Positions 54,632 through 56,863 of a stretch of DNA of 64,000 nt are shown one piece after another. Every line of letters starts with the position of its first letter. Positions within the stretch are counted from its first letter, which is position 1. The translations under genes were made by a program, and so were the position numbers. Under the pieces are notes generated by a model, which was given only the letters and a program-made list of their open reading frames with translations, was not told the DNA's origin and did not search any database. This DNA comes from Nitrospiraceae bacterium (lineage in GTDB: Bacteria; Nitrospirota; Nitrospiria; Nitrospirales; Nitrospiraceae): positions 1 to 64,000 of the forward strand of contig CAKKRE010000027.1 of assembly GCA_919902505.1 (NCBI GenBank), given 5' to 3'.

Positions 54632-56863
54632 ATGCGGCTGTCCCTCCGGTTTATCCTTCCCCTCTTGCTGGTGTTGGGAGTCGTGGCCTATAGCGTCGTG
54701 CCCCTCGTCGATTCGCTCACGCTGAAGTGGTTCACGCGCGACCTTGAAAGCCGATCCAAATTACTGGCCAGCACGATGGAAGTGCCGTTGGCGGACCTGG
54801 TCGTGTCGCGTTCACGCACGAAGATCTTCGCTTACTTTCACAAAGTCATTCAGGACGAGCGGCTCTATGCGCTGGGTTTCTGCGATACTCAGCAGCGCCT
54901 GCTCTACCAGACATTGACCTATCCCGACCAGCTGTCCTGCGAAAGTCTAGCGCACCTGGCGCCGGGCTCCTCGGAAGTGGTGGAGTTTGCGCAGGGACCG
55001 CTGCACGTGGTGGTCGCGACCATTCAGTCCGGGGGCAAAGCGCAGGGCCGGCTGATGCTGGTCCACGACATGAGTTTTGTGCACCAGCGCAGCACCGATA
55101 CGAAGTGGTATATTTTTTATCTCTTCGTCGGGCTCGCCGGGCTGATTTCAGCGGTGACCGTGCTCGTCGCGCAGCTCAGCTGGCGAGGCTGGGTGGCCGG
55201 GGTGCGGGCCATGTTGACCAGCAAAGGGTTGCCGCCTGAATCCGCCGGAGCCCATTCGTCCGAACTGCATCCGGTGGCGCAGGATCTCCATGCGTTGGTG
55301 CGGGAATTGGAAGCCGATCGACGGATGCGCGATGAGAGCCAAATCACCTGGAGCCCCGCCAGCCTCAAAACCATTCTGCATGAGCATCTTTCCGGCGACG
55401 AAATTTTGATTGTCTCCAATCGGCAACCCTATATCCACAATCGACGCGGGCAGAAAATCGAGGTGCAAGTACCGGCCAGCGGGCTGGTGTCTGCACTCGA
55501 GCCGGTGATGCGGGCCTGTTCGGGCGTGTGGATCGCTCATGGCAACGGTTCAGCGGACCGGGATGTCGTGGATAGCCGGGACCACGTACGGGTGCCGCCG
55601 GACCATCCTTCATACGATATTCGCCGCATCTGGTTGTCGCCCGACGAAGAATCCGGCTTTTATTATGGGTTTTCCAACGAGGGCCTCTGGCCCTTATGCC
55701 ACAATGCGCATGTCCGTCCGACGTTCAGGACTTCCGACTGGGAACAGTATGTGGCCGTCAACGAGCGGTTCGCGAAGGCGGTGGTGGAAGAAGCCAAGAC
55801 GGATGATCCGGTGATCCTCGTACAGGATTACCACTTTGCGCTGCTCCCGAAGATGGTGCGCGAGAAGCTGCCGAACGCCACCATCATCATGTTCTGGCAT
55901 ATTCCCTGGCCCAACTCCGAAAGCTACGGCATTTGCCCGTGGCGGCAGGAGATTTTGGAAGGCTTGCTCGGCAGCAGCATCGTCGGGTTTCACACTCGTG
56001 AGCATGGAAACCATTTTCTGTCCTGCATCGATCGCATCCTTGAAGCGCGCATCGACCGCGACAGCTCCACGGTGTCCTACGGCGGGCGCCTCACGGCGGT
56101 CAACCCCTACCCGATTTCCATCGAGTGGCCGTCGCGCTGGTTGGAGAATCAACGGCCGGTGCCGGACTGCCGGGTGCATATCCGCGAGCGTCATGCGATG
56201 GGACCCGACCGGCTGGTCGGGATCGGTGTCGACCGCTTGGACTACACCAAGGGCATCATCGAGCGATTTCTCGCCGTCGAACGATTGTTCGAGTTGCAGC
56301 CCGAGTGGGTCGGCAAGTTTTCCTTCATTCAGATCGCGGCGCCGAGCCGGACGATCATCGACCAGTACCAGCATTTCCACGATCAAGTCTACGCGCTGGC
56401 TGAGCGCATCAATAAGCGGTTCGGCCGCGAAGGGTATGAGCCGATTGTCTTGAAGGTGAAACACCACGAGCCGCCGGATGTGTATGAGTATTACCGGGCC
56501 TCCGAGCTCTGCTTCGTCACGAGCCTACATGACGGCATGAACCTGGTGGCCAAGGAGTTCATTGCAGCCCGCGACGACGAACAAGGCGTGTTGATCCTCA
56601 GCCAGTTCACCGGGGCGGCGCAGGAGCTGCCTGAGGCGCTGGTGGTGAATCCCTACGATATCGACCAGTGCGCGGCGGCGCTGCACATGGCGCTCTCCAT
56701 GACCCCGAAGGAACAGCGCGCCCGCATGCGGAGCATGCGCGGACTGATTCAGGAGTTCAATGTGTACCGGTGGGCCGGTCGCATGCTCATGGACGCAGCC
56801 CGGATGCGTCGTCGCATTCGCGTGATGAAGCAGGTGGGACAAGCCTCGGGACGGGGGCGATAG
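54632..56863 (+). CDS. otsA: Trehalose-6-phosphate synthase with N-terminal membrane sensor-like domain
   Basis: A 743-residue protein. The GT20 trehalose-6-phosphate synthase domain occupies about residues 260-735: [11 protein letters not shown] at its start, [36 protein letters not shown], the UDP-glucose-side [21 protein letters not shown], and [15 protein letters not shown]. It makes trehalose-6-phosphate from UDP-glucose and glucose-6-phosphate. The first 190 residues are unusual: membrane helix about 7-27, an outer domain of about 125 residues with one Cys pair, a second helix about 158-180, then a HAMP-like helical linker. This is the layout of sensor kinases, not of ordinary 470-500-residue OtsA. 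otsB follows 8 bp later. Confidence 0.93.

Follow-up and report, generated by a model that had tools for sequence, protein, structure and literature searches.

A trehalose-6-phosphate synthase joined to a predicted membrane sensor module: a candidate receptor-enzyme of Nitrospira and other bacteria

The locus and the layout of the encoded protein

The window, i.e., the whole stretch of DNA that was analysed, comprises 64,000 nucleotides of a Nitrospiraceae contig (CAKKRE010000027.1) from an assembly of 4.24 Mb in 84 contigs (GCA_919902505.1). The ORF reading of the window showed that positions 54632-56863 of the plus strand form one open reading frame, which starts with ATG, encodes 743 amino acids and has no internal stops. 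Its product, referred to here as the fusion TPS, is flanked by two genes of apparent relevance to trehalose, and the features of the locus are as follows.

52797..54593, minus strand: GH15 trehalase-like protein, encoded divergently with 38 bases between its gene and that of the fusion (Pfam GH15 2e-40, TREH_N 1.1e-9)
54632..56863, plus strand: sensor-linked trehalose-6-phosphate synthase (fusion TPS), the whole ORF of 743 amino acids, kept at full length in relatives
54653..54715, plus strand: TM helix 1, residues 8-28, continuing into the long first Cache helix (hydropathy 2.56; helix 2-59 in the model)
54716..55105, plus strand: predicted periplasmic Cache/PDC-like sensor domain, residues 29-158 (AlphaFold2 model, pLDDT 80; VIA Z 12.6 for LuxQ, 11.4 for WalK, 10.8 for CitA)
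54881..54883, plus strand: Cys84, invariant (35/35 relatives), half of a probable disulphide
54938..54940, plus strand: Cys103, invariant (35/35 relatives), half of a probable disulphide
55106..55174, plus strand: TM helix 2, residues 159-181 (hydropathy 2.45)
55175..55342, plus strand: HAMP-like two-helix linker, residues 182-237 (hhalign to kinase HAMPs; no Pfam HAMP match; low model confidence at 199-214)
55349..55387, plus strand: short helix with W240 and L245, residues 240-252 (fixed spacing to catalytic Arg264; helix 242-252 in the model)
55403..56797, plus strand: GT20 trehalose-6-phosphate synthase domain, residues 258-722 (Pfam E 7.3e-126; acceptor and donor residues invariant)
56872..57645, plus strand: otsB, trehalose-6-phosphate phosphatase, directly following the fusion gene in the same orientation (Pfam 1.6e-27; above the cut-off of NCBIfam T6PP), with the start codon at 56872 being our choice inside a longer ORF

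Beyond otsB, a PPK2 gene is located further downstream, and an MscS-like gene is found 5.7 kb downstream of the fusion gene. Elsewhere in the window, positions 49537-50153 hold a small adjacent pair that by eye resembles a Phd-type antitoxin and a RelE-type toxin, and positions 47443-48489 encode a winged-helix protein with a HATPase-like middle and a DUF4325 STAS-like end, an odd one-piece regulator.

Hydropathy of the fusion TPS, computed in 19-residue windows, peaked in two stretches, starting at residues 8 (2.56) and 161 (2.45), and the other stretches examined reached at most 1.2. Both peaks recur in all 35 non-redundant relatives and in all 67 members of a wider fusion set. Two Lys/Arg residues precede TM1 and three follow TM2, with no Asp or Glu at either place, which fits a topology with the N-terminus inside and the loop outside. 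A first-pass annotation of this DNA had described such an arrangement, i.e., a membrane helix, an outer domain with a Cys pair, a second membrane helix and a linker; the ORF, the hydropathy and the conservation of the Cys residues confirm this layout and its coordinates, and the topology check that it proposed indeed found the two helices.

The sensor module and its kinase relatives

Since sequence searches of PDB and Pfam gave no useful match for the N-terminal part, comparison of folds and of profiles was needed for its recognition. Pfam detected no domain in the first 257 residues of the fusion TPS and no match to its Cache models in the protein, and a PDB sequence search with the N-terminal profile returned chance matches only (best E 0.11). 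In the sister clade of fusions described below, some proteins match sCache_3_2, sCache_4 or dCache_3, below cut-off. The commonest Pfam match among the relatives was Adeno_E3B (24 of 33; best E 0.0011), which falls on a TM helix in the window protein and was judged to be a chance match. Residues 1-250 were modelled by AlphaFold2 from a 33-sequence alignment, with a mean pLDDT of 80. The model contains helices at 2-59 and 62-76, five strands between 80 and 146, and helices at 148-197 and 213-235, and its pLDDT drops below 50 at residues 199-214, in the HAMP-like part. This is the succession of elements of a Cache/PDC fold, namely, a long helix, a second helix, a five-strand sheet and a return into TM2. 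Foldseek with the N-terminal model retrieved the WalK-YYCH model first (E 2.2e-7) and LuxQ next (8.8e-5). By VIA-align, in a comparison of residues 8-172, i.e., of the module without its HAMP-like part, the Z scores were 13.3 for the WalK-YYCH model, 12.6 for LuxQ (rmsd 2.7 over 123 residues), 11.5 for DctB, 11.4 for WalK and 10.8 for CitA. As modelled, the outer domain is thus an extracytoplasmic sensor domain of the Cache/PDC fold. It is also the least conserved part of the protein (mean identity 0.45 vs 0.70 for GT20), and no ligand pocket was identified in it.

The kinship with histidine kinases extends beyond the outer domain. Eight kinases had been picked up by the profiles of the fusion family, and hhalign of the synthase N-termini against these eight gave 98.6% with an E value of 4.8e-16 over 224 columns, running through TM1, the outer domain, TM2 and HAMP; for the sister-clade synthases against the same eight kinases, the values were 99.8% and 2e-29. 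As the kinases were retrieved by the family profiles, the alignment supports homology and is no blind test. One sister-clade synthase matches NCBIfam HK_WalK over residues 1-248 (6.6e-12), below the model's own cut-off. The family profiles also retrieved, with the same N-terminal layout, the PAS-HisKA kinases L143 (by Pfam) and L144 (by eye), at E values of about 4e-4 to 6e-4, the HisKA/HATPase kinases L187, L188, L189, L191 and L192, and the HD-GYP protein L190; L186 is a further kinase-like ORF. Five of the eight compared kinases were run through Pfam, and all five have a Pfam HAMP. The HAMP-like part of the fusions aligns by hhalign with the HAMPs of true kinases and lies at the right place after TM2, but Pfam HAMP (PF00672) had no match at E≤1 in the fusion TPS and none listed for the 33 relatives. 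The HAMP-like linker of the earlier annotation is therefore upheld in position and profile alignment, while the Pfam match is absent and the model confidence is low there. Taken together, the profile alignments indicate that the N-terminal region is a genuine sensor module, homologous to the input modules of histidine kinases including HAMP, and, along with the Cache fold of the model, they substantiate the bacterial-sensor layout that had been suggested.

The likeness to Cache-HAMP sensor histidine kinases of the WalK, CitA, DctB and LuxQ type consists of the TM-Cache-TM-HAMP module, in fold as well as in aligned profiles. However, Pfam finds neither HisKA nor HATPase_c in the fusion TPS, the output of which is a biosynthetic glycosyltransferase. 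With sensor-linked enzymes, such as HD-GYP, GGDEF and cyclase receptors, it would share the design of a one-piece receptor with an enzymatic output; the outputs of those receptors make or break second messengers, whereas that of the fusion TPS makes a metabolite precursor.

Although the outer domain varies most, all 35 of the clade-1 relatives retain both Cys84 and Cys103. In the outer region of the 67 fusions, two Cys are found in 40 and three in one (41 with at least two), a single Cys in one, and none in 25; the spacing from the first to the last Cys is 19 in 38 of the 41. A structural disulphide between Cys84 and Cys103 probably explains this pattern, and redox sensing, though conceivable, need not be invoked. 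As a specific alternative, the redox state of the envelope might open or close Cys84-Cys103 and so set the synthase activity, which would agree with the invariance in clade 1 and with the nearly all-or-none occurrence of the pair; yet a structural disulphide would equally produce an all-or-none pair, and 26 of the 67 fusions have the same architecture without it. We regard such a switch as improbable. Of the redox cue that had been considered at the outset, the Cys pair itself is thus present and invariant in clade 1, but a purely redox-based reading lost weight, both Cys being absent from the sister clade.

The synthase domain and its family

Pfam assigned a single domain to the fusion TPS, GT20 (PF00982), at residues 258-722 (E 7.3e-126; 421 bits against a Pfam cut-off of 32.5), and the match spans profile positions 3-471 of 473, so that the domain is complete, as first proposed. 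Active-site positions were mapped on alignments with 5JIJ and 6JBI, the residues being chosen in part after a published account (PMC6879718). All but two of the sixteen GT20 positions checked are identical in 41 of 41 sequences, namely, Arg264, Gly284, Tyr344, Trp353, Asp399, His423, Arg535, Lys540, Arg573, Asp634-Asn637 and Glu642, the two that vary being 283 and 303. In OtsA of M. thermoresistibile, according to that account, Arg18, Tyr90, Asp144 and Arg324 contact the acceptor; their counterparts in the fusion TPS are Arg264, Tyr344, Asp399 and Arg573, and that of the donor loop is Asp634-Gly635-Met636, while one published contact differs, OtsA Gln146 being replaced by His401 (PMC6879718). 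By these comparisons, the TPS-type active site of the fusion protein is intact. Bacterial OtsA or GT20 synthases, such as those of M. thermoresistibile (5JIJ) and E. coli (1GZ5), resemble it in the complete GT20, the same donor and acceptor residues and the otsB partner, but they are soluble chains of 456-487 residues in PDB, whereas the fusion TPS adds a membrane sensor module of 257 residues.

A second difference from OtsA is that the fusion TPS does not reach the curated cut-off of the NCBIfam OtsA equivalog, TIGR02400 (425.7 bits vs 564.85), and it was consequently filed only as a GT20 of TPS type. The shortfall would suit an enzyme that has a real sensor but uses another donor or acceptor and makes a product unrelated to trehalose. 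Against this, the trehalose models rank best among the NCBIfam scores, with glucosylglycerol-phosphate synthase far lower, the acceptor-binding Arg/Tyr/Asp/Arg set is invariant, otsB and trehalase genes are adjacent, and the plain GT20 of the same cell misses the same OtsA cut-off too (428.7 bits); a different product is, in our judgement, very unlikely. The plain GT20 (L002:1468-2991; about 508 amino acids) is a second GT20 of the source genome, soluble-looking, without the sensor module and 39% identical, and most genomes of the genus have a GT20 of this kind alongside the fusion. Thus, a plain and a sensor-linked GT20 seem to coexist in the cell.

The fusion is a widespread protein family over five sampled phyla and not a local oddity. 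Among 61 neighbouring genomes, 35 have any match and 28 a full-length ORF, the latter comprising 24 within the genus, counting that of the window itself (93-100%), and four outside it (67-76%). In a scan of named genomes, the best 80 of 146 loci carry the fusion ORF and represent Nitrospira, Betaproteobacteria, Geobacter and other Deltaproteobacteria, Acidobacteria, Bdellovibrionales, Oligoflexia and Gemmatimonadetes, and two 'Peribacteraceae' bins that may be misassigned; the closest named matches among these 80 are Nitrospira, e.g., Candidatus Nitrospira defluvii (99%). The search for the same architecture in Nitrospirota, which had been recommended, gave matches to the N-terminal profile alone in 55 of 245 genomes, 52 of them in open frames of at least 735 amino acids and three in fragments or truncated frames. 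The other phylum samples were searched with the full-length profile, a full-length match being one from position ≤25 to ≥720; the rows were hand-counted, the centre genome of each sample, a known carrier, was counted in, and the phylum names were inferred from the centre loci. On this basis, full-length matches were found in 17 of 198 genomes of the Geobacter-type sample (any match in 76; two of the 17 with one stop codon), 14 of 149 in Acidobacteria (any match in 57), 23 of 144 in the Bdellovibrio-type sample (any match in 48) and 4 of 299 in the Noviherbaspirillum-type sample of Pseudomonadota (any match in 85). Some genomes have two fusion copies. In a search of plasmid proteins, none of the 359 matching records covers 80% of the fusion TPS. 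A chance fusion or misassembly, the latter named in the first-pass annotation as a ground for refutation, is ruled out by the full-length ORF in these neighbours, in the best 80 of 146 named loci and in four further phyla, and its probability is negligible. As a separate observation, L195 and L196 of the Acidobacteria sample have GT20 open frames of 1242 and 1349 amino acids, which may be further fusions or merely long frames.

The history of the fusion was examined in trees of GT20 sequences. In the first tree, of 67 fused and 10 solo rows, all the fused rows lie on one side of a branch (99/94). For a second set, 20 solo rows were added and the long-branch solos L197 and L200 were removed, resulting in 95 rows, and a quick FastTree of these, rooted on one solo, placed 12 solos inside the smallest clade holding all the fused rows. 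A careful tree was built from 66 of the 95 rows, the 29 dropped being 27 fused rows, thinned by us, and two solo ones; it needs two changes, as 40 fused rows form a clade (100/97) with the solo L210 and L214 inside, of which L214 is long-branched. One ancient fusion followed by one later loss is the history favoured by these trees, though not proved. The removed solo L197 (L197:580-2823), the second GT20 of the genome behind L076, is itself fused to a trehalose-phosphatase domain.

Conservation extends to the neighbouring genes. At the best 80 of 146 loci, the flanks contain otsB in 74 cases (on the downstream side in 72) and GH15 in 56, many of the contigs ending early; where the contig extends for 2.5 kb or more in both directions, as at 51 of these loci, otsB is present in 48 and GH15 in 38. 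The sister clade, from nine Nitrospirota genomes outside the window's family, has the layout TM-Cache-TM-HAMP-GT20 at about 39-42% identity to the fusion TPS and without the Cys pair. An MscS-family/DUF5752 gene adjoins all nine of its fusions (six matched along most of the length, two in the DUF5752 part only and one in the MscS part only), TreT, another trehalose synthase, adjoins eight, and otsB seven. Two clade-1 loci (L076 and L079) have neighbours related to the sister-clade ones. The MscS-family neighbours, in the sister clade, at L076/L079 and in the window, are our main reason to favour an osmotic cue, and they are circumstantial. The initial guess of such a cue finds its support in the gene context, i.e., otsB, the GH15 trehalase and the MscS-family gene beside the sister clade. 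The conserved set of MscS-DUF5752 channel, TreT, sensor-linked TPS and otsB can be seen at L152:2083-7857 and at L146-L151, L153 and L154; the occurrence of DUF5752 on a mechanosensitive channel beside trehalose genes is of note in itself.

Receptor-enzyme or membrane anchor

The spacing of conserved residues bears on how the two halves of the protein may communicate. In 40 of 40 aligned fusions, P10 and R41, spanning from TM1 to the stalk, are 31 residues apart, and W240 and N263 are 23 apart; in the wider set of 67, the W-to-Asn spacing is 23 in 62 and 24 in three, with the motif misplaced or absent in L150 and L173. From P214, in the second HAMP helix, to W240 the distance is 26 in 30 of 31 proteins and 33 in nine of nine sister proteins, a difference of +7, or one heptad, that rests on two clades and is anchored by conserved residues (9/9). 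The segment with the HAMP connector ranges from 23 to 34 residues across the 40 aligned fusions. Judged by these distances, the helical parts appear to be constant in length or one heptad apart, while the loops drift; such constancy would be unnecessary for a flexible tether. We also considered that one heptad might have been deleted symmetrically from the two HAMP helices, but the first-helix half of this idea was dropped, as MAFFT gives 7 and hhalign to the kinases gives 4. The linker helix ends a few residues before the acceptor-binding Arg264, which is followed by a loop and a helix. These are the counterparts of the Arg35-Gly39 loop and helix 1 of M. thermoresistibile OtsA, which are reported to shift by up to ~12 Å on closure (PMC6879718).

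A real sensor module followed in one chain by an intact TPS-type GT20 is most naturally read as a sign of control that bypasses a kinase relay. We propose, at a probability of roughly 0.6, that the protein is a transmembrane receptor-enzyme whose synthesis of trehalose-6-phosphate is directly controlled by a cue, perhaps osmotic, from the envelope. The periplasmic Cache/PDC domain, probably stabilised by the disulphide in clade 1, would sense the cue, most likely one connected with osmotic or drying stress. The resulting change would travel from TM2 through the HAMP-like helix pair and the fixed-length helix to the first GT20 strand and would alter the opening and closing of the GT20 domain, the gating of the closure motion from the membrane side being our own inference. 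In this way, the synthesis of trehalose-6-phosphate from NDP-glucose and glucose-6-phosphate would be gated directly, and OtsB, the product of the next gene, would complete trehalose. Of the kinase-free membrane switch envisaged in the first-pass annotation, the sensor module and its junction to an intact GT20 hold, while dimerisation, signal transmission, the change in activity, its direction and the cue are what we infer.

The main rival of the receptor-enzyme is a membrane anchor, in which the module would simply hold the TPS at the inner membrane, near OtsB, transporters and channels, the Cache domain being a passive relic. Its best argument is offered by alphaproteobacterial-type TPSs of about 600 amino acids (L222, an Aminobacter plasmid copy in NZ_CP015007.1, and L232-L237), all seven of which, when examined, retain one N-terminal TM and the W-helix without Cache, and membrane location may therefore be the selected trait; that the outer domain is the most variable part also fits a relic. 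Nonetheless, the two TMs and the Cys pair are retained in 35 of 35 relatives, the connector lengths are constant at the expected helices, a Cache-HAMP module homologous to that of kinases would be superfluous in a passive anchor, and its retention over several phyla would go unexplained. On balance, we consider a mere anchor to be rather unlikely.

The receptor-enzyme reading may be placed beside the allosteric control of mycobacterial OtsA by 2-oxoglutarate and 2-phosphoglycerate, which are cytoplasmic metabolites acting at a site between protomers (PMC6879718). The likeness is the post-translational control of a TPS, but the control proposed here comes from a membrane sensor and not from cytoplasmic metabolites. 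In the literature searched, in which subscription journals were thinly covered, no description of a Cache- or HAMP-linked TPS was found. The fusion proteins are probably deposited under the bare enzyme name, as L222 is, and so it is the receptor-enzyme reading that is new and not the gene itself; the parts are of known kinds, and the novelty lies in a receptor input joined to a metabolic output. In Geobacter sulfurreducens, GSU2337 and GSU2336 have been named as a TPS and a phosphatase (PMC2700814), and the phrase 'containing a domain' used there leads us to guess that GSU2337 may share this architecture. More generally, and at slightly under even odds, several phyla may use one-piece receptors with metabolic output, by which an osmotic or drying cue quickly gates a compatible solute without a kinase, a second messenger or gene expression. 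If true, this would place another level of trehalose regulation alongside transcription and cytoplasmic allostery, and would widen the range of receptor outputs beyond signalling enzymes into core metabolism. A Cache-HAMP-wired TPS would also make the post-translational matching of trehalose synthesis to stress testable in one polypeptide, with a bearing on the tolerance of Nitrospira nitrifiers to osmotic and drying stress.

A cut-down fusion gene was found at L155:2001-2618, in a genome of the same family as that of the window; it encodes 206 amino acids of the sensor part only, and a site-specific recombinase-like ORF, recognised by eye, is located nearby.
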